Assembly: GCA_938023075.1 (NCBI GenBank)
Contig: CALHDG010000124.1
Location: 1 to 33,693, forward strand
Source of the DNA: an uncultured Chitinophagales bacterium
GTDB lineage: Bacteria; Bacteroidota; Bacteroidia; Chitinophagales; JAHDHT01
Direction of reading: 5' to 3'
DNA: 33,693 nucleotides
Part shown: piece after piece, positions 6,660 to 28,476 of the stretch
Numbering within the stretch: the first letter of the stretch is position 1
Layout: every line of letters begins with the position of its first letter
Notes under the pieces: model-generated
What the model saw: the letters and a program-made list of their open reading frames with translations, nothing else
Database searches by the model: none
What the model was told of the DNA's origin: nothing
Program-made: the position numbers and the translations under genes

Positions 6660-6789
6660 TACGAAGAACCAAAGCCGGCAAACTAGCCCCGATTGCAGCG
6701 GTTATTGCCTGGAGCTTGCGGAAGGCAATTTGAGCGGAAAGCGGGACTACCCTTTCTACAAGGCTACAACCGGTTCGCTTCAAAAAAAG
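6660..6789 (+). repeat. Structured dispersed repeat, copy 1 (in leader of CHU_C gene)
   Basis: The core runs from TAGCCCCGATTGCAGCGGTT (6684 onward) to TTGAGCGGAAAGCGGGA. A variable stem of ATTGCC (6704-6709) paired with GGCAAT (6724-6729) lies between. The flanks are ACGAAGAACC on the left and GGTTCGCTTCAAAAAAA on the right. It lies between the promoter and the likely start codon, so it would be transcribed. The ORF stays open through it by chance. Similar copies are at 11554, 21426 (minus), 21675 and 28322 (minus). Confidence 0.8.
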
Positions 6790-11472: not shown

Positions 11473-11553
11473 CATTGAAATTAGCAACAACTTTGCTGTT
11501 ACTTTATGATAATTATTTTTACACATTATTTTATATTACATCTTAAAACAAGT

Positions 11554-11750
11554 TTATCAAAGTGGTTGATACTTTCCTGTTTTCGAGTGCCTGTGTTTTT
11601 GATTCTACGAAGAACCGAAGTTTTTAAACTAGCCCCGATTGCAGCGGTTATGCTGCCTGAAGGGCATGATTTTGCAGCCTAGCCGCAGCATTTGAGCGAA
11701 AAGCGGGACGGGTGTTATTATGATGCTATAAGGTTTCGCTTCAAAAAAAA
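11554..11750 (+). repeat. Structured dispersed repeat, copy 2
   Basis: The core is CTAGCCCCGATTGCAGCGGT from 11629. The variable stem ATGCTGC (11650-11656) pairs with GCAGCAT (11685-11691). The 3' core is GAGCGAAAAGCGGGA and the tail is GGTTTCGCTTCAAAAAAAA. The left flank from 11554 (GTGGTTGATACTTTCCTG, GAGTGCCTG, TACGAAGAACCGAAG) is shared with copy 3. It lies 85 bp upstream of the peroxiredoxin-like gene. Confidence 0.82.
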
Positions 11751-11834
11751 CAATGCAAAAGTGTCAACTACTTTGTTGTTTGGATAAACTTGTCCATCTT
11801 AATGATTATTTTTGACGCCTAAATATTAAACGTT

Positions 11835-12425
11835 ATGCAGTTATCCTTCTACATATTATTAGTTGTTAGTTTTATTGGATTGAACAGTATCGAAATAAAA
11901 CAATTAGAAGTTGGCGACAAAGCCCCCCTTTTTGTTGGTGTTAACCAAATTGACGAAACTATTAGTTTAGAAGCCTTGTTGGAAGAGGGTCCGGTAGTGA
12001 TGACTTTTTACCGCGGCAAGTGGTGTCCTTTTTGCAACAAATATTTAGCTGAGTTGGATGAAAATTATCCGAAAATGAAAGAGCTTGGTGCCAACTTAAT
12101 TGCGATATCGCCTGAATTACCCAAACATATACAGCAGACCGCCAATAAAATGGAACACCCTTATTCCATCATTTCTGGTGGAACATCCATTATGCAACAA
12201 TATGGTGTTGATTTTCAGTTAGACAAAAAAACCAAAACAAAGTATAAACTGTTCGGTATAAATGTTGCTAAACGCAATGGTATGGATGATTACACTTTAC
12301 CGGTACCTGCCACCTATGTAATTGACAAAAAAGGTGTAATCGTGTATAAACATTTTGACGAAAATTATAAAGTAAGAGCAGAGGTTAAAGACATTTTGAA
12401 TGCTTTGGAAGCATTGCAGCATTAA
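11835..12425 (+). CDS. Peroxiredoxin-like (AhpC/TSA family) exported protein
   Basis: The 196-aa protein begins with a short hydrophobic segment (MQLSFYILLVVSFIGLNSI), which suggests export or membrane anchoring. The thioredoxin-fold core has VMTFYRGKWCPFC, with the redox Cys pair at the start of the first helix. LPVPATYVIDKKGVIVY supplies the cis-Pro loop and final strands. These match the peroxiredoxin-like group of AhpC/TSA proteins, which reduce peroxides or exchange thiols. The CPFC pair sits where the peroxidatic Cys of peroxiredoxins lies. It is a single gene between two repeat-rich gaps with no obvious operon partner. Confidence 0.85.
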   Translation: MQLSFYILLVVSFIGLNSIEIKQLEVGDKAPLFVGVNQIDETISLEALLEEGPVVMTFYRGKWCPFCNKYLAELDENYPKMKELGANLIAISPELPKHIQQTANKMEHPYSIISGGTSIMQQYGVDFQLDKKTKTKYKLFGINVAKRNGMDDYTLPVPATYVIDKKGVIVYKHFDENYKVRAEVKDILNALEALQH

Positions 12426-12460
12426 TATACCTAACAGTAACGTATATCAAAATATGAGTA

Positions 12461-12707
12461 ACTTAATTTTCGGTAGTAAAATAATTGCTGTTCCATTGTG
12501 TCAACAAATGCCACTTTACTGCAACAAGTGAACAGGTTCACTTGGATGGTTTTATGCTTTATATTTTGAATTAAGTTAACTTAAGCCCCACTAAGCCTGC
12601 GTTTTTCAACTCGTCTGTCAAAAAATGGCTTTATCAGAGTTGATAAATTTATTTTCTCATCGTTCGTTATGAAATAAATACATAAATACTACTACCGAAA
12701 CTTAAGT
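12461..12707. mobile_element. MITE-like element with 18-bp TIRs and 5-bp target duplication
   Basis: The left end ACTTAATTTTCGGTAGTA (12461-12478) and the complement of 12690-12707 agree at 17 of 18 positions. The pentamer GAGTA directly flanks both ends (12456-12460 and 12708-12712) in direct orientation, as expected for a target-site duplication. The 247-bp body has no transposase. It contains a palindrome with 9-bp arms, CAAGTGAAC-AG-GTTCACTTG (12525-12544). The right end lies 71 bp from the carB start, so the element is probably part of, or upstream of, the carB control region. Confidence 0.8.
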
Positions 12708-12778
12708 GAGTAAGCATCAAAAATTTTAATGCTTAAAAAAGCGAATTGCTTACCTTAGCCCAAAATGTAAAACAGGCA

Positions 12779-15595
12779 ATGCCAAAAGACCAGTCTATTA
12801 AAAGTATATTAATTATCGGTAGCGGTCCTATAATCATCGGGCAGGCTTGCGAGTTTGATTATGCCGGCTCACAAGCCGCACGTTCCTTGCGCGAAGAAGG
12901 GATAGAAGTGTCATTAATCAACAGTAATCCGGCTACTATAATGACGGATGAAGTAACGGCAGACCACATTTATCTGCTGCCTTTAACCGTAGCTTCGCTG
13001 GCACAAATTTTAGAGGAAAGGCAAATTGATGCAGTCTTACCAACTATGGGTGGACAAACTGCCCTTAACCTTTGCATTGAAGCCGATGAGCAAGGGCTTT
13101 GGGAAATGCATCAGGTAAAAATTGTTGGGGTAGAAATTGATGCCATTGAAAGAACGGAAAATAGAGAAATTTTTCGTCAGTTGATGATTGATATTGGGAT
13201 GCCAATAGCCACCTCTAAAATTGCCAATTCTTTTTTAGAAGGTAAAGAAACGGCACAGGAAATTGGCTTTCCTTTGGTGATTAGACCCTCGTTTACTTTA
13301 GGCGGATACGGCGGAAGTTTTGTACACAGCAAAGAAGAATTGAACGATGCTTTAGAACGCGGTTTAGAGGCATCGCCCACCCACGAGGTATTGGTAGAGC
13401 AAGCCGTTATCGGCTGGAAAGAATATGAATTGGAATTGCTACGTGACAATGATGACAACGTCGTAATTATTTGCACGGTTGAAAATATGGACCCCATGGG
13501 CATACATACCGGCGACAGTATTACCGTTGCACCAGCCATGACTTTAAGCGATACGGCTTATCAAAATATGCGGAATATGGCGATCAAAATGATGCGATCC
13601 TTAGGGCATTTTGCCGGTGGTTGTAATGTGCAATTTGCCATTAACCCATCAGACGAATCGTTAATTGCAATTGAAATTAATCCGAGAGTTTCGCGTTCAT
13701 CGGCATTGGCAAGTAAGGCAACCGGTTACCCTATTGCAAAAATTGCCGCTAAGTTAGCCATTGGATATAATTTATATGAATTAAAAAATCAAATTACACA
13801 AACGACCTCTGCCTATTTTGAACCGGCTTTAGATTATGTAATTGTAAAAGTGCCACGCTGGAATTTTGATAAGTTTCCCGGTGCATCAACTACTTTGGGT
13901 TTGCAAATGAAATCGGTTGGTGAAGTAATGGCAATTGGCAGAAGTTTTAAAGAGGCGATTCAAAAAGCATGTCAAAGTTTAGAAAGTAACCGCTTGGGTT
14001 TGGGTGCCGATGGCAAAATGTGGACGCGGGTTGATGATATTGTGCATAGCCTTGAAAACCCAAGTTGGGACAGGCTATTTAAAATTAAAGATGCACTCAC
14101 TATTGGGGTTCCTGTTAAAACCATATTTGATAAAACTAAAATTGACAAATGGTACATCCAACAAATTAATGATTTGGTGGAGTTAGAAAAAATCATTAAA
14201 AAATACACTCTCGATACCTTACCACAAAATTTATTTATAGAAGCCAAACAAAATGGGTATTCCGATGCACAGCTTGCTTTTTTGTTGGGTAGAATTAATG
14301 AAGATTTGGTGCGAACCCGCCGCTTTGAATTAGGCATTAAACGCACCTACAAAATGGTAGATACTTGCGCTGCCGAATTTGAAGCACAAACGCCGTATTA
14401 TTATTCATCATTTGAGGGCGAAAATGAAAGCATCGTTTCTGATAAAAAGAAAGTGATTGTGTTAGGCAGTGGGCCCAATCGAATTGGACAAGGCATTGAG
14501 TTTGATTATTGTTGTGTGCATGGTGTGTTGGCTTTAAAAGAAGAAGGCTACGAAGCCATAATGGTCAACTGCAATCCAGAAACGGTTTCAACTGATTTTG
14601 ACATTTCTGATAAACTGTATTTTGAACCCATTTTTTGGGAGCATATTGCTGATATTATAGACCATGAAAAACCAGAAGGCGTAATTGTTCAGCTTGGCGG
14701 ACAAACGGCTTTGAAGTTGGCAGAGAAATTTCACGAAAACGGCATTAAAATTTTTGGTACGTCTTTTAAAGGAATGGACCTCGCCGAAGACCGCGGCGCA
14801 TTTTCCGATTTATTGAAAGAGTTAGACATTCCTTATCCTGATTATGGCGCAGCTACCACCGTTGATGAAGCCATAGCAATTGCCCACCGGGTGGGCTTTC
14901 CCGTTTTGGTACGACCTTCCTATGTATTGGGCGGACAAAAAATGCGTATCGTAATAAATGATGAAGAATTGGAGCGAGGTGTTATCGATATTTTAAAACA
15001 CTTTCCGGAAAATCGTATTTTAATTGACCATTTTTTAGACCGTGCTTCCGAAGGCGAAGTTGATGCTATATGCGACGGAGAACAAGTTCAAATAATGGGT
15101 ATTATGGAACATATTGAACCTTGTGGTATCCATTCGGGCGATAGTAATTCGGTATTGCCACCTTATGGTTTGTCGCCATTGGCGGTAGATTTAATGAAAG
15201 AGTACAGCGAAAAATTAGCTGTAGCTTTAGAAATTAAAGGCTTACTCAATATTCAATTTGCCATTAAAGATGATATGGTTTATGTGATAGAAGCCAATCC
15301 AAGAGCCTCGCGTACCGTTCCGTTTATTTGCAAGGCTTATCAAATTCCTTACCTCAATGTGGCGACAAAAGTAATGATGGGCAACAAACAATTAAGCGAC
15401 TATACTTTTGAAGAACGCTTGGAGGGTTACGCCATTAAAGAACCCGTTTTCTCCTTCCATAAATTCCCCAATGTAAACAAACAACTCGGACCTGAAATGA
15501 AAAGTACGGGTGAGCGCATTTATTTTATTAAGGATACTAAGGATGCGCATTTTCGGGAGTTGTATCGGAATAAGAGTAGGTATTTGAGCCGGTAG
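12779..15595 (+). CDS. carB: Carbamoyl-phosphate synthase large subunit
   Basis: The frame is open from TTG 12746, but family proteins start MPKD, so I take ATG 12779 (938 aa). Two ATP-grasp halves are clear. The first opens IKSILIIGSGPIIIGQACEF and the second KKVIVLGSGPNRIGQGIEFD. Phosphate-loop and ligand motifs are present (VIRPSFTLGGYGGSF, EINPRVSRSSALASKATGYP, VRPSYVLGGQ, EANPRASRTVPFICKA). It makes carbamoyl phosphate from bicarbonate, ATP and ammonia delivered by CarA, for pyrimidine and arginine synthesis. The protein ends soon after the second synthetase half (GPEMKSTGERIYFIKDTKDA). The C-terminal MGS-like regulatory domain of the 1073-residue E. coli enzyme is therefore absent. I recall this shortened form from other Bacteroidota. 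carA is not in the window. A small hairpin (TAAGCAT at 12711, ATGCTTA at 12729) lies upstream. Confidence 0.95.
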   Translation: MPKDQSIKSILIIGSGPIIIGQACEFDYAGSQAARSLREEGIEVSLINSNPATIMTDEVTADHIYLLPLTVASLAQILEERQIDAVLPTMGGQTALNLCIEADEQGLWEMHQVKIVGVEIDAIERTENREIFRQLMIDIGMPIATSKIANSFLEGKETAQEIGFPLVIRPSFTLGGYGGSFVHSKEELNDALERGLEASPTHEVLVEQAVIGWKEYELELLRDNDDNVVIICTVENMDPMGIHTGDSITVAPAMTLSDTAYQNMRNMAIKMMRSLGHFAGGCNVQFAINPSDESLIAIEINPRVSRSSALASKATGYPIAKIAAKLAIGYNLYELKNQITQTTSAYFEPALDYVIVKVPRWNFDKFPGASTTLGLQMKSVGEVMAIGRSFKEAIQKACQSLESNRLGLGADGKMWTRVDDIVHSLENPSWDRLFKIKDALTIGVPVKTIFDKTKIDKWYIQQINDLVELEKIIKKYTLDTLPQNLFIEAKQNGYSDAQLAFLLGRINEDLVRTRRFELGIKRTYKMVDTCAAEFEAQTPYYYSSFEGENESIVSDKKKVIVLGSGPNRIGQGIEFDYCCVHGVLALKEEGYEAIMVNCNPETVSTDFDISDKLYFEPIFWEHIADIIDHEKPEGVIVQLGGQTALKLAEKFHENGIKIFGTSFKGMDLAEDRGAFSDLLKELDIPYPDYGAATTVDEAIAIAHRVGFPVLVRPSYVLGGQKMRIVINDEELERGVIDILKHFPENRILIDHFLDRASEGEVDAICDGEQVQIMGIMEHIEPCGIHSGDSNSVLPPYGLSPLAVDLMKEYSEKLAVALEIKGLLNIQFAIKDDMVYVIEANPRASRTVPFICKAYQIPYLNVATKVMMGNKQLSDYTFEERLEGYAIKEPVFSFHKFPNVNKQLGPEMKSTGERIYFIKDTKDAHFRELYRNKSRYLSR

Positions 15596-15608
15596 GAAGT
15601 AGCAGGAT

Positions 15609-15857
15609 CTATTTGTTAAACTTATGATAAGTATGTATAAATTCTTTATGATACTCTTTGGATTGTTCCAATAATTCACGATATGTCTTTACAAAAACCT
15701 CCCCAGAAGTAATATAAGTTTTTTCTTTCTTTTTAAATTTGTAGTCTCCTGATTTTTCACCACCTACTACATAGCAAACAACACGAGAAAATCCAGTTTC
15801 TGATGCATATTTATGTAAATATAATCGTCTTATATCCCTTTTTCCTAAAAAGGTTTT
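15609..15857 (-). pseudogene. Fragment of a second protein behind the truncated cytosine methyltransferase
   Basis: In the frame +1 to the methyltransferase, an open stretch of 82 codons with no start ends at TAG 15609-15611. It reads like real protein (RRLYLHKYASETGFSRVVCY, KKKEKTYITSGEVFVKTYRE, YHKEFIHTYHKFNK). It overlaps the last codons of the methyltransferase in another frame. The simplest reading is the C-terminal end of the gene that once followed dcm, most likely the partner restriction enzyme or an ATPase of that system. A deletion would have brought it next to the broken methyltransferase. The identity is inferred from context. Confidence 0.5.
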
Positions 15858-16392
15858 TCATATTGTTCAGGTATCTTCCACCCCTGGCAGATTTTAATCC
15901 AATAACATTTTCGAACACAAAAATTTTTGGTTGATACTTTTCAAGATACTTTGCATAATGTACATACAAATAGTTTCTGCTGTCACCTTCCATTCCATCG
16001 GAAGATCTTGCTCTGCCAACTAAAGAATAGGCTTGGCATGGCGGACCTCCAATTATTAAATCTACTTCTCTCTTTTTAAGTATCTGGTTAATTTTTTTAT
16101 GAATTTGCACATTAAATTTTGCCCCAACAGGTAAGTTAATGACTTGTTCCAATAGCTCGACCGGAACATAATAATAAAGTTCTGATCTGGACAGGTTTCC
16201 TTTTAAGTAATCCACATATTTATCAAATTGATTAGTTGATTTTAAATAATGGTAAGCTATTCGGGTCTTGAGGGTGAAACAAGCACTTTTATCCATTTCA
16301 ACATGGCAAACGGGTTTAAATCCTGCTTTAACAAATCCTTCCGACAATCCGCCGGCCCCTGAAAACAATGATATAAAACGAAATTCTGACAT
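15811..16392 (-). pseudogene. DNA cytosine-5 methyltransferase, truncated before motif VIII
   Basis: The 193-aa frame carries motif I (FISLFSGAGGLSEGF), motif IV with the catalytic Cys (GGPPCQAYS) and motif VI (FVFENV). It stops right after NLFRKKGYKTIIFT. Motif VIII, the target-recognition domain, and motifs IX and X are missing. The typical enzyme is more than 300 aa, so this is a 3' deletion product that should not recognise or methylate DNA. Its ATG overlaps the vsr stop (TAATG), the normal arrangement for a coupled operon. The fragment in the other frame at 15609-15857 marks the far side of the likely deletion. The original system cannot be named. Confidence 0.85.
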
Positions 16393-16811
16393 TAACTCGA
16401 TTTAAAATCTAATAGCAATTTATTAAGACTTCCTTCTCTTTTATCTGGTTTTAATGCACATTCCCAAATTGTAAAAACTTTCCATCCCATAACCTGAAGT
16501 AACATTGTGCTTTCTGCATCTTTTTGTCTTGTTCTGTTTATTTTATTTAACCACCATTCTGTTCTGGTTTTAGGAATAACGAAATATTTACAATTTTGAT
16601 GTCCATGCCAAAAACAACCATTTACAAAAATTACCTTTTTGTGCCTTGCAAAAACTAAGTCAGGCTTGCCGGGTAATTTTTTATGATGTAAACGATATCT
16701 GTATCCATTAGTAAAAAAGAATTTTCTAACAAGTAGTTCAGGCTTCGTATCTTTAGACCCTATTCTACTCATATTAAAACTCCTTACTTTCTTTGAATGG
16801 ACATCTGCCAT
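16392..16811 (-). CDS. vsr: Very short patch repair (Vsr) endonuclease
   Basis: The 139-aa protein has the full set of Vsr motifs: MSRIGSKDTKPELLVRKFFF, YRLHHKKLPGKPDLVFA with the metal-binding Asp, and VIFVNGCFWHGHQNC with catalytic and zinc-binding His and Cys residues. PKTRTEWWLNKINRTRQKD and GWKVFTIWECAL follow. Vsr nicks next to the T of T:G mismatches that arise when 5-methylcytosine deaminates at the partner methylase site. It precedes the broken methyltransferase with a 1-nt overlap. It appears complete although its partner is dead. A TAATTTTG -7-like box lies at 16829-16836, without a clear -33. Confidence 0.93.
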   Translation of the reverse strand: MADVHSKKVRSFNMSRIGSKDTKPELLVRKFFFTNGYRYRLHHKKLPGKPDLVFARHKKVIFVNGCFWHGHQNCKYFVIPKTRTEWWLNKINRTRQKDAESTMLLQVMGWKVFTIWECALKPDKREGSLNKLLLDFKSS

Positions 16812-16940
16812 AGATCATATTTATTAATCAAAATTAGCAGATATTATTGCAATATTATAAAGTTGTAGAATTTTTGTAGAAATTATTTTCTTTTAGTATA
16901 AAAGGTATTTAAATTAAAATCACTTTTTTTCCAATCCTTC

Positions 16941-17028
16941 ATGGTGGATTCAATCGATTTTCTCCAGCATCATACAAAATCAATTTGATACTATTCTATT
17001 AATATAACCATGCTTCATGCCAAAGCCA
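16941..17028 (-). pseudogene. Decayed 3' fragment of a glyoxalase-family gene
   Basis: These 88 bp align without gaps to 18916-19003 in the intact glyoxalase gene, with 71 of 88 bases identical. Read on the minus strand, the fragment gives WLWHEAWLY followed by two stops where the intact gene has DPDG. It then gives KLILYDAGENRLNPP. It is a dead partial copy in the same orientation, 1.97 kb from the live one. The rest of the 16812-17195 gap holds only AT-rich DNA and a small palindrome (CATCATATGATG). Confidence 0.8.
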
Positions 17029-17195
17029 AGATTAATGAAATTAAATGTCAAGTACTTCTTTTCAGCTAAACACCAAAATTTTAAATGAAAACCCCAAAAA
17101 GGCATCATATGATGTTGATATAATGTTCATGCATAAGTCAACAAAATCCTCCTGAAAGTATATTTTTATGCTACGATAACAAAAACAGCAATCAA

Positions 17196-18842
17196 ATGAT
17201 CATAAAACTTAAAAGTAAAATTTATTTAAGTGATTGGCTCATGTTTAAACCTTATGAAAAACAAGCACCAACGGATATGTATTACCTTAAACTAGGTAAC
17301 AGGGTAAAAAATGCGCTTGAAAAAAGTATGCTACACTCAATTCTTAGCACCTATTTACCCAATGAAAACATAAATGAAGAATTGAATAGGTTGGCTTGCT
17401 TCCTCACTTCTTATTTTGAAGATTTAATATCAGAAACTAACCTTTGGTGTGCCTTTTTCACCAAGCATCAGCAAATGTATAGTAAGCCGCTACCTTTTTA
17501 TGATACCACAGATTATTACGAAGGGGAAATTAACCAACAAGATGTCAATTTTTTAATTTGGTATTTTGTTAATTGTGTGCAAGATGAAAATTACATTGAA
17601 CCGGTTCAACCTTTTTTGAAAGATGCTGCCGAAAAAGTAATGGTTGAATTGGAGGCAGCGTGGGAAACGGCACCTGAAAATGAAAACCTACAAGCCTACT
17701 ACCGAATTGATGAATTCGAAAAAGACTATTATAAAGTGAAACAGTTTACCGAAACTATTTTATTTTATTCTTATTTGTTTTTCCCTGATACTGGATTAAA
17801 AGCTATAGATAGACAGCAATCAATACAAGATGATAAGAGGTCAGCAGAAAACCAGGAAATGTTTTTATATGACGACTTAACGAGCTATGTACATGCTGCA
17901 AAAACCCAATTGCTGAGCATGTCAGGTCAAGAGTGGGCTGCTGCTATTTTAGGAGAACAGCACCAATTAAGTGAAGCCTTGCTTAAAATGTCGAAAAGAT
18001 TAACCGGTTTATTTTTATATAAAGGTCAAGATGAAGAATACGTACATATCGAACACATTGCATCTAGCAAAAAATTTGCCGTAACTATACAATCTATTCA
18101 AGGTGCTCATCTGTTGAAAGAAATTGATACTATTGTATGTATGGGTATCATAAAATGGAAGAAACAGTGGTGGTTTTCAGGTGCCATGTTTCAGCAGCCC
18201 TATAGTGCAGCTATCGTTTCAGAACAAAAAAAATCTCAACAAAGTATAAAAGCGGTTAATTTTTTAGATGAATATAAAAGAGCTGAAGAAGCAACTCAAA
18301 AATATTTAAAATACTTTTTGCAGTTTAACAAAGGCAGCCAAATTGCCTTTATGCCCACCAACAAAATAGATGAGTTTGTTGTTGATTTTTACCAATTTTA
18401 CAATAACACGATAAGATTTGCCTCTAAGGAAAATGAAGAAAAATATGAAAAAATGGAAAAACAGGGAGCTATTAATAACTTTGCAGGTCATCAGTATTTT
18501 TCCAATTTAGGAGAAGATTCGCCAGAAAGTGGCTTAGTGTTTTTTAATCCAAAATCCGGTTTAGAAATGGCGCTTGGAATAAATAGTGCATTTCCAATGC
18601 CCAACAATCCTTTTTATAATGTAGAAGAAAGTGAAGAGTGCATTTTTAGCTTGTTGGAGGGCAAAGAATTTTCGAAAGAATTAGTGATGTATTGCATGGA
18701 GCATTGTAAAGATGATCTATACTTTTTCAACTACGATGCAAATGGTGAACGCTATTTAAAAGATCTCGATTTTTTGTTGCGCTTTTGGAAAGCAGAAGCT
18801 TATCATTCTAAACCTACTATAACTTTAATTGAAAGAGATTAA
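17196..18842 (+). CDS. Hypothetical protein, possibly DUF3843-like
   Basis: The 548-aa soluble protein has no signal peptide or membrane helix. The N-terminus (IYLSDWLMFKPYEKQAPTDM followed by YYLKLGNRVKNAL) resembles what I remember of DUF3843, an uncharacterised Bacteroidota family, but I cannot confirm this. The middle is helical and rich in acidic and aromatic residues (EGEINQQDVNFLIWYFVNCV). No catalytic motif stands out. The C-terminal third includes NPKSGLEMALGINSAFPMPN and EHCKDDLYFFNYDANGERYL. It is a single gene bracketed by the dead and live glyoxalase ends. Codon use looks like its neighbours. Function is unknown. Confidence 0.7.
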   Translation: MIIKLKSKIYLSDWLMFKPYEKQAPTDMYYLKLGNRVKNALEKSMLHSILSTYLPNENINEELNRLACFLTSYFEDLISETNLWCAFFTKHQQMYSKPLPFYDTTDYYEGEINQQDVNFLIWYFVNCVQDENYIEPVQPFLKDAAEKVMVELEAAWETAPENENLQAYYRIDEFEKDYYKVKQFTETILFYSYLFFPDTGLKAIDRQQSIQDDKRSAENQEMFLYDDLTSYVHAAKTQLLSMSGQEWAAAILGEQHQLSEALLKMSKRLTGLFLYKGQDEEYVHIEHIASSKKFAVTIQSIQGAHLLKEIDTIVCMGIIKWKKQWWFSGAMFQQPYSAAIVSEQKKSQQSIKAVNFLDEYKRAEEATQKYLKYFLQFNKGSQIAFMPTNKIDEFVVDFYQFYNNTIRFASKENEEKYEKMEKQGAINNFAGHQYFSNLGEDSPESGLVFFNPKSGLEMALGINSAFPMPNNPFYNVEESEECIFSLLEGKEFSKELVMYCMEHCKDDLYFFNYDANGERYLKDLDFLLRFWKAEAYHSKPTITLIERD

Positions 18843-18892
18843 TCTAACAATATTAAGTAAATTAATTGCGCAGTATCAAATAAGAAGATGTA

Positions 18893-19282
18893 CTATTCCT
18901 GATGCTTAATTTTCCATGGCGGATTTAATCGATTTTCGCCGGCCTCATACAAAATCAATTTGTTGCCATCAGGGTCATACAACCATGCTTCGCGCCAAAG
19001 CCATGGTTTGTCGTTGGGCAATTCGTCAAATTGAATTCCTTTTTTTTCTAACTCTTCAACATAAGTATCTAAATGATCGCATTCAAAATAAACCCAAACA
19101 CCATTACTGCCTTTCGGTAACTGATCAGTTTGATGAATGGAAAATGTAGCATCTCCGGTAACACAGGTAAACCGTGCATAATGTGGCATTGATTGTACAA
19201 TCATGGTTAAACCTAATTTTTCATAAAATGGAATAGACTTAGTTAAATCTAATGATGGTATAGTAATGTGATTTAATTTCAT
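18893..19282 (-). CDS. Glyoxalase/bleomycin-resistance (VOC) family protein
   Basis: The 129-aa protein has the paired beta-alpha-beta-beta-beta units of the VOC fold. The start is KLNHITIPSLDLTKSIPFYE, with His4 as the first metal ligand. A second strand contains VWVYFECDHLDTYVEEL. The end is WREAWLYDPDGNKLILYEAG, with Glu as the last ligand. The superfamily covers isomerases, dioxygenases and antibiotic-binding proteins, so the reaction cannot be assigned. It starts with ATG at 19282 and diverges from the LptG-like gene. A dead copy of its 3' end lies at 16941-17028. Confidence 0.87.
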   Translation of the reverse strand: MKLNHITIPSLDLTKSIPFYEKLGLTMIVQSMPHYARFTCVTGDATFSIHQTDQLPKGSNGVWVYFECDHLDTYVEELEKKGIQFDELPNDKPWLWREAWLYDPDGNKLILYEAGENRLNPPWKIKHQE

Positions 19283-19384
19283 TTAATTTGTCTTTTTTGA
19301 AGTTGTATTTTCTATTAGGTACGAAAATCTATTCCTAAAGATACTACTTTTCAATTTTTAAAAAACACCCCTTAAACAATATTA

Positions 19385-19416
19385 AGTGAAACATACAAAG
19401 TGTTTCACTAAATTTG
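19385..19416 (+). promoter_or_regulatory. -7 box with overlapping inverted repeat upstream of lptG-like gene
   Basis: TAAATTTG (19409-19416) fits the TAnnTTTG -7 box and lies 6 bp before the ATG at 19423, which implies a very short or absent leader. A perfect inverted repeat AGTGAAAC (19385-19392) / GTTTCACT (19402-19409) ends on the first base of the box and is placed like a repressor site. Confidence 0.5.
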
Positions 19417-19422
19417 CGCTCC

Positions 19423-20499
19423 ATGTTTAAAAAACTCGATTGGTACATTATAAAAAAGTTTTTGGGCACCTTCTTTTTTACGCTGATACTATTTATGGCA
19501 GTATCAGTAGTAATTGATATCTCCGAAAATGTAGACGATTTTGTAGAAAAAGAAGTGCCTCTTAATAAAGTGATTTCTGGTTACTACCTTAATTTTGTAC
19601 CGCAAATTAGCTTTATGCTGTTTCCGATCTTTATTTTTATTGCAGTTATCTTTTTTACCTCGCGTTTAGCAAACCGCTCCGAAATTGTGGCTGCCTATGG
19701 TACGGGAGTAAGCTTTTATCGCATTTTATTTGTTCCTTATATGTTGTGTGCCTTTTTGCTAACCGGCATTCAATTATATGCCAATCATTATTGGGTGCCA
19801 CAAGCGAGTGAGCGTTTATTAAATTTCGAAAATACCTACATTAGCAAAAGTAATTATCACCGAAGTAGAAATATACATTATCAAGTGAGTAAAAACGAAT
19901 ATGCTTATCTCGAAAATTATAGTGTTAAAGACAGTACCGGTTATAAATTTGCTTTAGAAAAAATGCGCGATAAAAAATTGGTGTACAAAATACGAGCAGA
20001 TAAAATTAAATGGAAAACCGACCATTGGGAAATTGTAAACTATTACAAACGATACATTAATGGTTTAGATGAAAAAATTGAACAAGGCGAAAAAATGGAT
20101 ACTACCCTCGCCTTGTTGCCTGAAGATTTTGGCAAAACCGAACAAAACAAAGACATGATGATTACCCCAGACCTAAAACAATACATTGCCAAAGAACGAA
20201 GTAGAGGCGTGTCGGGTTTATCGCTTTTTGAAGTAGAAGTACACCGCCGTAGCGCGGTCCCGGTGGCAACCATTCTGTTAACCATTATGGGCTATGCTAT
20301 TGCCTCACGGAAAATGCGAGGTGGTATGGGCTTGCATCTCGCTTTTGGGGCGGGTTTAAGTTCAGCTTTTGTGATGTTGCAACAATTTTCGCAAACCTTT
20401 TCTACAAAAGGTGGCTTAGATCCCGCTATCGGCTCGTGGATGCCTAATATTATTTTTACTATTATCTGTATATATCTTTTAAAAGTTGCGCAAAAGTAA
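19423..20499 (+). CDS. LptF/LptG (YjgP/YjgQ) family permease
   Basis: The 358-aa protein has the YjgP/YjgQ layout: an N-terminal helix pair beginning KKLDWYIIKKFLGTFFFTLI, the motif FFTSRLANRSEIVAAYGTGV, a soluble periplasmic beta-rich central part (residues about 140-260), and C-terminal helices (VPVATILLTIMGYAIASRKM). LptF and LptG form the inner-membrane part of the ABC exporter that pulls lipopolysaccharide out of the membrane. ATG 19423 is chosen because the in-frame TTG at 19414 lies in the promoter box. It overlaps the next gene by 14 bp. I cannot separate LptF from LptG by eye. Confidence 0.88.
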   Translation: MFKKLDWYIIKKFLGTFFFTLILFMAVSVVIDISENVDDFVEKEVPLNKVISGYYLNFVPQISFMLFPIFIFIAVIFFTSRLANRSEIVAAYGTGVSFYRILFVPYMLCAFLLTGIQLYANHYWVPQASERLLNFENTYISKSNYHRSRNIHYQVSKNEYAYLENYSVKDSTGYKFALEKMRDKKLVYKIRADKIKWKTDHWEIVNYYKRYINGLDEKIEQGEKMDTTLALLPEDFGKTEQNKDMMITPDLKQYIAKERSRGVSGLSLFEVEVHRRSAVPVATILLTIMGYAIASRKMRGGMGLHLAFGAGLSSAFVMLQQFSQTFSTKGGLDPAIGSWMPNIIFTIICIYLLKVAQK

Positions 20500-21394
20500 T
20501 TTCAGCGATCAAATACATTTACATTTTATTGTATTGATATTTGGTTTTACCGGTATTTTAGGAAAACTCATTTCGGTTGATGCCTTGCATTTAACCACCA
20601 TTCGCATGTTTTTAGCTTCATTGGGTTTGTATGGCTATTACCGCTATAGTCTTTCCCGCCGTAGGAAGTCAAACAAAAACAAATCAGCAAGCATTAAAGG
20701 TAAAACATTTATTAAGGTTTGTGGAGTAGGCATACTCATGGCAGTTCATTGGTTTACCTTTTATCATGCCATTAAAATTTCTAATGTATCGGTTGCCTTG
20801 GCATGTTTTTCGGCAACTACTTTATTTACCAGTTTAATAGAACCCTTAGTAGAAAAAAGAAAAATTTATTGGATTGAAGTGGTGCTGGGTTTGGTCATCA
20901 TTGTTGGACTGTCTATTATTTTTCAATTCGAGTTTCGTTATTATCAAGGTATTTTGGTGGGTGTTTTTTCTGCATTTGTTATCAGCATTGCCACCGTAAT
21001 TAACCGGCAATTGGTGCAACAATACGATCATACTTATATGAGCATTGTTGAGTTAGCCATAGGTGCTGTTTTTTTGCTGCTTATCTTTTTGTTGCAAGGC
21101 GGTACTTTGCCGGGCTTAGTCAACGTTGCCGCTATCGATTGGTTTTGGTTAATCATCCTCAGTTTAGTTTGTACCTCTTATGCCTTTACCGCTGTTATGG
21201 AATTAATGAAACGCATCAGTGCCTATAAAGTAAACTTGGCAATTAGTCTCGAGCCGGTGTATGGCATCATTCTCGCCTTACTTATTTTTGGCGAATCCGA
21301 ACAAATGAGCCCTATGTTTTATGTAGGGGCAGTGCTGGTTTTTCTGGCAGTGTTTAGTTACCCATTTTTAATGGCAAGGTTTGGTAATAACTAA
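20486..21394 (+). CDS. EamA/DMT-family transporter
   Basis: The 302-aa protein has about ten hydrophobic segments arranged as two EamA repeats. One contains LISVDALHLTTIRMFLASLG and AVHWFTFYHAIKISNVSVAL. The other contains VCTSYAFTAVMELMKRISAY and INLAISLEPVYG-like sequence (VNLAISLEPVYGIILALLIF). The last motif is the typical EP-containing helix of drug/metabolite transporters. The TTG start at 20486 lies inside the end of the permease gene (14-bp overlap). No ATG exists before the first helix, so this start is preferred. Substrate is unknown. The gene is probably co-translated with the LptG-like gene. Confidence 0.87.
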   Translation: MRKSNFSDQIHLHFIVLIFGFTGILGKLISVDALHLTTIRMFLASLGLYGYYRYSLSRRRKSNKNKSASIKGKTFIKVCGVGILMAVHWFTFYHAIKISNVSVALACFSATTLFTSLIEPLVEKRKIYWIEVVLGLVIIVGLSIIFQFEFRYYQGILVGVFSAFVISIATVINRQLVQQYDHTYMSIVELAIGAVFLLLIFLLQGGTLPGLVNVAAIDWFWLIILSLVCTSYAFTAVMELMKRISAYKVNLAISLEPVYGIILALLIFGESEQMSPMFYVGAVLVFLAVFSYPFLMARFGNN

Positions 21395-21425
21395 AAACAA
21401 GCTGTTCAAAACACCATTATTTATT

Positions 21426-21617
21426 AGAAGCGAAACTGCCAGACTATATAATAACACCCGTCCCGCTTTCCGCTCAAATGCCATTTGCCTTCGCTGCAAA
21501 AGCCCTTCAAAATGGCATAACCGCTGCAATCGGGGCTAGTTTGCAAACTTCGGTGCTTCGTAGAAAAATAAAAAACGAAGGCACTCGAAAACAGAAAAGT
21601 ATTAACCACCTCGATAA
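21426..21617 (-). repeat. Structured dispersed repeat, copy 3
   Basis: On the minus strand the core CTAGCCCCGATTGCAGCGGT is followed by the variable stem ATGCCATTT (21510-21518 complement) paired with AAATGGCAT (21478-21486 complement). GAGCGGAAAGCGGGA and a GTTTCGCTTC tail follow. The left flank (GTGGTTAATACTTTTCTG, GAGTGCCT, TACGAAGCACCGAAG) is shared with copy 2 over about 70 bp. Confidence 0.82.
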
Positions 21618-21674
21618 ATCTGAATTAAGATTAAGTGTTCTGATTTTATAAATTATAAAAGGCTTGATTGTAGG

Positions 21675-21808
21675 AGTGCCCTTAGAAGCCTAGCCCCGAT
21701 TGCAACGGTTATGTTGCCTGAAGCGTTGGCATTTGTCGTCAAGCCGCAACATTTGAGTGGAAAGCGGGGAGCTCGTTTTTAAAATGCTTTGCTGTTTCGC
21801 TTCTAAAA
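21675..21808 (+). repeat. Structured dispersed repeat, copy 4
   Basis: The core is CTAGCCCCGATTGCAACGGT from 21690. The variable stem ATGTTGC (21711-21717) pairs with GCAACAT (21746-21752). The 3' core is GAGTGGAAAGCGGGG. The outer pair TTAGAAGC (21682-21689) / GCTTCTAA (21799-21806) is perfect. Together with copy 3, in opposite orientation, it fills most of the 431-bp gap between eamA and the next gene. Confidence 0.82.
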
Positions 21809-28294: not shown

Positions 28295-28321
28295 CTCCTT
28301 AATTAAATTTAAAAGTACTTG

Positions 28322-28432
28322 TTTTTTTTGAAACGAACCGGAAGAACTCGCAGAAAGGAGCAGCCTGCTTTCCATTCCAATCTTTCCCGTCACTTCGTGA
28401 ACGGGAAAGGATTTCCATTGCAATCAGGGTTA
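28322..28432 (-). repeat. Structured dispersed repeat, divergent copy 5
   Basis: On the minus strand it reads TAACCCTGATTGCAATGG, then a hairpin CTTTCCCGT / ACGGGAAAG (28382-28409), then GAATGGAAAGCAGG, ending CCGGTTCGTTTCAAAAAAAA. Layout and tail match copies 1-4. The CCCG/CGGG helix of those copies is replaced by the equally paired CCTG/CAGG. It abuts the dead toxin gene. Confidence 0.72.
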
Positions 28433-28476
28433 GATTATAAAGGGCAGTCCTCCGTTGGAAAATGGGCAAATTTGGT

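Follow-up and report, generated by a model that had tools for sequence, protein, structure and literature searches.

What are the short repeats scattered along a 33,693-nucleotide contig of an uncultured Chitinophagales bacterium (CALHDG010000124.1, assembly GCA_938023075.1; this whole stretch is called the window below), and are they genes for small RNAs (sRNAs) or pieces of mobile DNA? A cmscan search against Rfam identifies them as Flavo-1 (RF01705), and all five copies in the window match that model. The reading favoured here, to which a probability of roughly 0.78 is attached, is that Flavo-1 repeats are non-autonomous mobile DNA, many of them riding a miniature inverted-repeat transposable element (MITE), rather than ordinary sRNA genes, and that their fold is under selection.

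Flavo-1 is catalogued in the motif table of Weinberg et al. 2010 (PMC2864571), and the relevant portion of a review places it among the most abundant sRNAs, with no function stated there (PMC9029176). The Rfam type of RF01705 is "Gene; sRNA" and its cut-off is 42 bits. Only copy 5, an A-type copy on the minus strand, scores over this cut-off, whereas the other four lie under it (33.1–38.9 bits, E 5e-5 to 0.0019) and were recovered at a relaxed threshold. Elsewhere in the source genome, copies score both over and under the cut-off. The original prediction, made from the letters of the window, had described a dispersed, structured repeat at four places. All four match RF01705 and each contains TAGCCCCGAT exactly (6684, 11630, 21529 on the minus strand and 21691); a search for this motif with up to one mismatch gives four matches in the window against 1.14 expected, a number reached in 1 of 100 shuffles. 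The stems that it named are also present (ATTGCC/GGCAAT, ATGCTGC/GCAGCAT, ATGCCATTT/AAATGGCAT and ATGTTGC/GCAACAT), including the C-to-T change with its matching G-to-A between copies 2 and 4. Its right-hand motif is absent from copy 2 in the form given, the sequence there being GAGCGAAAAGCGGG, one base off; its copy starts take in flanking bases outside the Rfam spans; and its list, correct for four copies, overlooked the strongest one. Its interpretation as a structured family stands, but it missed both the Flavo-1 identity and the miniature-transposon setting of many copies.

The transposon emerges from a comparison of flanks, which reveals inverted repeats around part of the Flavo-1 copies of the source genome. 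The inverted end of the element is GACAAGTTTATC, continued by AAAGTAGTTGACA. With up to one mismatch, the 17-base end TTGACAAGTTTATCNAA is found at 118 places in the source genome, and the reversed pattern at none. Where both are present, the ends mostly lie about 84 bases upstream of the core start and about 150 bases downstream of it, with a single orientation; in a few copies (L023, L025 and L389) they are farther off. Once one artefact of negative length is removed from 38 cases, 37 copies lie inside an element of about 248 bp with both ends; 35 of the 37 measure 243–261 bp, the remaining two 224 and 274 bp. An 8-bp target duplication is exact in 10 of these 37, has at most one mismatch in 18 and at most two in 24, where mispaired left and right flanks would give 0.00, 0.33 and 2.28, respectively. 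These 37 copies hence combine inverted repeats at both ends, a length of about 250 bp and a target-site duplication: the ~248-bp element is a MITE whose target duplication spans 8 bp. In the window, where the open reading frames (ORFs) were checked, no listed ORF of at least 80 aa overlaps the element around copy 2. An initial test for inverted flanks had placed only 1 of 124 copies over the 99% level of mispaired flanks; that test was weak because the ends are common to many copies, and the target duplication settled the matter. The family itself is already known, but the MITE anatomy carrying Flavo-1 is new for this lineage, no earlier description of a MITE-borne Flavo-1 having been found in the literature on Flavo-1 or on Bacteroidetes/Flavobacterium MITEs and repetitive extragenic palindromes (REPs), mostly outside subscription journals.

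Vehicle and contents can be told apart. A scan for the ends, which yielded at least 113 stretches, also picked up ends around other interiors, and among the matches listed exact 8-bp duplications flank such interiors at four loci of the source genome (L382, L392, L395 and L405) and two in Saprospiraceae metagenome-assembled genomes (L445 and L473). Inexact duplications, again among the matches listed, occur at L407 of the source genome (one mismatch) and at the Saprospiraceae loci L438 and L483 (four and three mismatches), whilst four listed loci from unrelated taxa (L442, L452, L454 and L471) have five to eight mismatches and their ends look like chance. The scan hints, short of proof, at an origin of the window in Saprospiraceae. 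Since interiors other than Flavo-1 lie between the same ends, the vehicle does not depend on Flavo-1, and since Flavo-1 occurs in other families without these ends, it does not depend on the vehicle. The folded core is therefore a passenger of the MITE, a conclusion to which the lack of ends around most A-type and other-family copies also leads. Two of the source-genome loci, L382 (294 bp) and L395 (292 bp), have near-identical end regions around their non-Flavo-1 interiors, which are perhaps a second cargo type.

The fold of the passenger was assessed on 124 distinct copies from the source genome, chosen by sequence patterns (at most two substitutions in 14 bases at one end and at most one in 9 at the other) after one duplicate was dropped from 125 hits; 122 were aligned, the other two being cut by contig ends. 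Because copies were picked by pattern, the paired percentages are upper bounds, although the picking does not favour double over single changes: over 14 pairs, 99.5% of the 1,708 cells of the source-genome set pair, with 93 two-sided and 4 one-sided changes, and over 11 pairs in 75 copies from other genomes 98.3% of 825 cells pair, with 95 two-sided and 7 one-sided changes. In neither set does any of 500 shuffles equal the observed pairing, count of two-sided cells or covariation score, in statistics that leave kinship uncorrected although related copies inflate the pair counts. In the source-genome set 8 of 500 shuffles have as many pairs with two-sided changes and 65 as many pair types, and versions of the structure slid along the alignment pair at 31 to 53%. 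For the other-genome set these two measures give no support (258 and 499 of 500 shuffles), but one core pair there shows all four Watson-Crick types (UA 39, AU 29, GC 5 and CG 1). The predicted compensatory stem changes are thus borne out by pairing, two-sided cells and covariation score, which beat all shuffles and the slid versions.

Beyond the Rfam model lies a closing helix, in which AGC (from TAGC, after its first T) pairs with GCT downstream of the core. It is proposed by RNAalifold on the combined source-genome alignment and on both other-genome sets; it was not recovered from B-type or A-type copies taken alone. In the source genome two of its three pairs change in step (13 and 10 two-sided cells), and in the other-genome set no two-sided change but three GU cells were seen. 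Within the core, the source-genome stems are Watson-Crick in 990 of 992 cells (one GT, no AC, one other), and four A/G mismatched positions are constant in 124 of 124 copies, an upper bound in this pattern-picked set; the same positions vary more in the loosely picked other-genome set, which also contains false matches. The near-strict Watson-Crick core, the AGC/GCU helix that closes the structure and the invariant non-canonical A-G positions show that the fold is under selection on the nucleic acid. A long outer helix (GAAG/CTTC, CGAA/TTCG) was also considered and is not claimed, its B-type copies having 34 AC cells against 44 GT.

The family is abundant where it occurs. The source genome (6.12 Mb, 288 contigs) holds at least 137 RF01705 matches at E up to 0.001, and the true number may be higher because only 142 candidates were scored. 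Copies also lie within a few bases of the ends of contigs C173 and C119, so the repeats may interrupt the assembly and lead to an underestimate of copy number. A match was found in 6 of 20 genomes searched, the source genome included. In a sample of 395 genomes of the phylum, stricter filters (E up to 1e-5) left 53 with a match, spread over 22 of 171 genera, in agreement with the statement in the original prediction that other Bacteroidota have similar elements. In another genus, labelled g37, matches were found in 39 of 40 genomes, at 0 to 41 copies per genome. Such a patchy distribution resembles that of mobile DNA. Plasmid and phage collections gave no match to the single 201-base query used, L117 from another genome. 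More distant matches (L002, L006, L008 and L144) have GGGATAG or similar in place of TAGCCCCGAT and, by eye, differ in the closing helix and have an additional 3' hairpin; from these, the family may extend beyond what the Rfam model captures.

Presence and absence can be compared at orthologous gaps of g37. At site Y the element is present in G424, G443 and G423, beyond a terminator-like hairpin, and gaps without it are shorter, at about 80 bases in G434 and G421 against about 480 in G424, and 125 in G445 against 420. At site Z the element is found in G423, the gaps of G436 and G431 are about 100 bases shorter, and that of G445 is equally long but filled with other sequence. Site X holds the element in G424, G449, G423, G429, G443 and G445, none in G434 and a degenerate one in G436. 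The alignments omit G421 and G431 at site X and G436, G429, G431 and G449 at site Y, and two rows were left out, namely G449 at site X, whose state was read from its sequence, and G443 at site Y. Two-sided changes are seen at site X, and a core pair is broken in two of the three copies at site Y (G424 and G423); given these broken pairs and the degenerate G436 copy, lasting selection on each single copy is not demonstrated. Other high-copy repeats of about 100–270 bases, which match many places in several genomes, lie near Flavo-1 in g37 (L175:9429-9658, L180:16957-17109 and L180:6434-6700).

In the mechanism proposed for these observations, the longer B-type copies of the source genome would have spread at least partly as the interior of the ~248-bp MITE, which a transposase acting in trans may move by cutting at the GACAAGTTTATC ends, giving the 8-bp duplications. 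The fold could be a one-strand hairpin to which a protein or other machinery binds, aiding the persistence or spread of the element; Flavo-1 might then be a mobile, selected single-strand fold, in RNA or single-stranded DNA, that is read by a protein. It is also conceivable, as a tentative extension, that Flavo-1 is a portable module of Bacteroidota older than its carriers, a selfish or host-useful single-strand fold that changes vehicles, the MITE here and something else in other genomes, and that recognition of the fold by a protein of the host or of the element keeps the Watson-Crick core and the A-G positions.

Several observations weigh against the transposon interpretation. A second count recorded both ends in 24, one end in 29 and none in 38 of 91 B-type copies, and both in 2, one in 1 and none in 30 of 33 A-type copies; with 38 B-type and 30 A-type copies lacking a recognisable end, the vehicle does not account for all copies. 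A-type copies gave no target-duplication signal. Among the 75 other-genome copies none has both ends and six have a right-end-like match only, and the target-duplication signal outside the lineage of the source genome is weak at best: near flanks share 8-mers in 7 of 75 cases against 3.2 expected and 7-mers in 14 against 9.9, and a few offset pairs with 5 or 6 matches are possibly internal repeats. Gain and loss in g37 are unpolarised, and no duplication was seen at its orthologous sites. Promoter-like TAnnTTTG boxes show a small excess upstream of A-type copies in the sense direction, at 7 of 33, compared with 1 in antisense and 1 and 3 in controls farther away. Moreover, no transposase frame stood out beside the ends at the part of the 118 places inspected by eye in this draft genome. 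Nor did a Pfam scan of 19 proteins of the window show a transposase family. An IS1595 partner was tried and dropped: in a search confined to that family, the genome has a single IS1595-type gene, without these ends.

Five rival explanations were weighed. That the Flavo-1 copies are stand-alone small RNAs, in line with the Rfam type, is unlikely. The strong covariation would suit such RNAs, as would the A-type upstream boxes and a wobble lean in hand-picked hairpin columns towards the TAGCCCC strand, with 38 GT against 8 AC (B-type copies of the source genome 13/3, A-type 12/3, others 13/2; loop position 43/101 and the outer helix left out). However, there is no enrichment of TAnnTTTG before the B-type copies of the source genome, with 8 sense and 12 antisense cases among 91 (controls 13 and 3), or in other genomes, with 7 sense and 10 antisense among 75 (controls 5 and 17). 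Nor are the 70 nt 3' of the element, in the sense direction, enriched in T-runs, at 9 of 33 A-type (controls 16 and 13), 16 of 91 B-type (24 and 28) and 21 of 75 other copies (21 and 13), and A-runs are common there (25, 80 and 54, respectively). In the part of a study of Flavobacterium psychrophilum that concerns them, matches lie sense or antisense to transcripts and many fall outside transcribed regions (PMC9723704). Taken from sequence alone, the indirect signs of an independent sRNA thus appear mixed and mostly negative. A MITE that is transcribed and, like ERIC or NEMIS, affects adjacent mRNAs in cis through its RNA hairpin is a possibility, though a doubtful one. It would agree with the MITE anatomy, with the wobble lean in the same columns and with a siting downstream of genes, since among 123 copies of the source genome, placed by approximate gene calls, 32 lie in convergent and 10 in divergent gaps. 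Against it, orientation between co-directional genes is mixed, with 23 sense (>F>) and 31 antisense (<F<) of 123 and no clear preference, and at site Y the element lies beyond the terminator-like hairpin, where by eye the opposite gene appears to end too.

For a fold acting in DNA, mobilisation as a single-stranded element by a Y1 (IS200/RAYT-type) HUH transposase, like REPs, seems quite unlikely. A one-strand hairpin, nine Y1 gene matches in the source genome and a lagging-strand bias in two g37 genomes (18 of 23 copies in G445 and 12 of 15 in G441) would point that way, but there is no bias in two others (7 leading to 8 lagging in G326, 19 to 19 in G334) and the source genome leans weakly in the opposite sense by local skew (79 to 43 of 123). 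These counts rest on over-cut-off copies (23 of 37 listed in G445, 15 of 27 in G441, 15 of 39 in G326 and 38 of 39 in G334), with G423 and G188 left out, and a general replication-strand orientation in g37 was rejected on them. In addition, none of the nine Y1 loci of the source genome, of about 3 kb or less, contains a Flavo-1 match; over 40 genomes there is no clear dependence on Y1 genes (rho 0.30, p 0.058), and five of the 40, which have no Y1 match, hold 35, 27, 7, 4 and 2 copies; and inverted ends with a target duplication are instead what a double-strand cut-and-paste system would leave. A cruciform binding site in double-stranded DNA is rated improbable. The near absence of G-T from the source-genome core stems speaks for it, as does a gapless count of the outer hairpin with 16 GT and 22 AC (p 0.42; source genome 7/0, others 9/22), whereas the column counts of that hairpin contain the excess of GT over AC described above. 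The gapless count was, we think, spoilt by a bulge, and the two counts together amount to a lean only. Least probable of all is that the double changes arose without selection, by template-switch correction copying one palindrome arm onto the other. The scarcity of one-sided intermediates in both sets is what such a process would leave, but correction would remove the four A-G/G-A core mismatches that all 124 source-genome copies keep, an objection softened by the pattern-picking, which favours this constancy, and by the greater variation in the loosely picked set. Non-autonomous mobile DNA with a selected fold remains the preferred reading.

Among known systems, REP and REPIN sequences with their RAYT transposases are dispersed intergenic palindromes. 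Flavo-1 resembles them in this respect, but no association with Y1 genes was found, and its MITE ends and target duplication are of another type. Flavo-1 as modelled in RF01705 has the sequence and core structure of the window copies, but the Rfam model leaves TAGC unpaired and contains neither the closing helix nor the transposon ends. The MITEs ERIC/IRU, Correia/NEMIS and RUP are, in the descriptions drawn on here, likewise small and non-coding, with inverted ends, target duplication, mostly intergenic positions and foldable transcripts (PMC2229807, PMC10969869). Unlike these, the Flavo-1 module is far wider in distribution than its vehicle, and the vehicle also carries unrelated interiors. 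BrickBuilt of Porphyromonas gingivalis, compared by description only, is also an intergenic MITE in Bacteroidota (PMC4596501, PMC10969869), but is described as containing a minisatellite (PMC4596501). If many Flavo-1 copies are transposon cargo, sRNA counts in the annotation of Bacteroidota are too high because they include mobile DNA, and asking what Flavo-1 does becomes asking two testable things, namely what transposase mobilises the vehicle and what factor recognises the fold. The closing helix, for its part, offers a longer covariance model for finding copies.

Table 1. Positions of the Flavo-1 copies and associated features in the window.
Feature	Position	Strand	Remarks
Flavo-1 copy 1, core	6681-6752	+	RF01705 38.9 bits, E 5e-5; row of alignment A1
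Flavo-1 copy 1 including closing helix	6679-6789	+	
Target-site duplication, left, CATCTTAA	11539-11546	+	
Miniature transposon holding Flavo-1 copy 2	11547-11794 (248 bp)	+	Inverted repeats at both ends
Flavo-1 copy 2, core	11627-11714	+	RF01705 34.9 bits
Closing helix of copy 2	AGC 11631-11633 with GCT 11738-11740		RNAalifold on combined source-genome alignment, and pair counts
Target-site duplication, right, CATCTTAA	11795-11802	+	
Flavo-1 copy 3, core	21455-21541	-	RF01705 38.3 bits; gap between convergent ORFs
Flavo-1 copy 3 including closing helix	21418-21543	-	
Flavo-1 copy 4, core	21688-21775	+	RF01705 33.1 bits; shares the convergent gap with copy 3
Flavo-1 copy 4 including closing helix	21686-21812	+	
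Flavo-1 copy 5, A-type	28357-28435	-	RF01705 65.2 bits; row L007 of alignment A1
Flavo-1 copy 5 including closing helix (AAC with GTT)	28320-28437	-	

Elsewhere in the source genome, locus L023 (C102:42598-49895) has four A-type copies in about 4.3 kb, interleaved with gene pairs read as toxin-antitoxin-like. An integron-like cassette array was considered for this cluster and rejected, as other copies are mostly single. The locus also contains a partly duplicated oxidase-like gene fragment, with a 185-base duplication at 89% that is not a target duplication, and a 251-base repeat with further small palindromes around two of the copies. In the window itself, at 15811-16811, a frame of 193 aa that matches C-5 cytosine methylase in two stretches adjoins a gene for a Vsr mismatch endonuclease.

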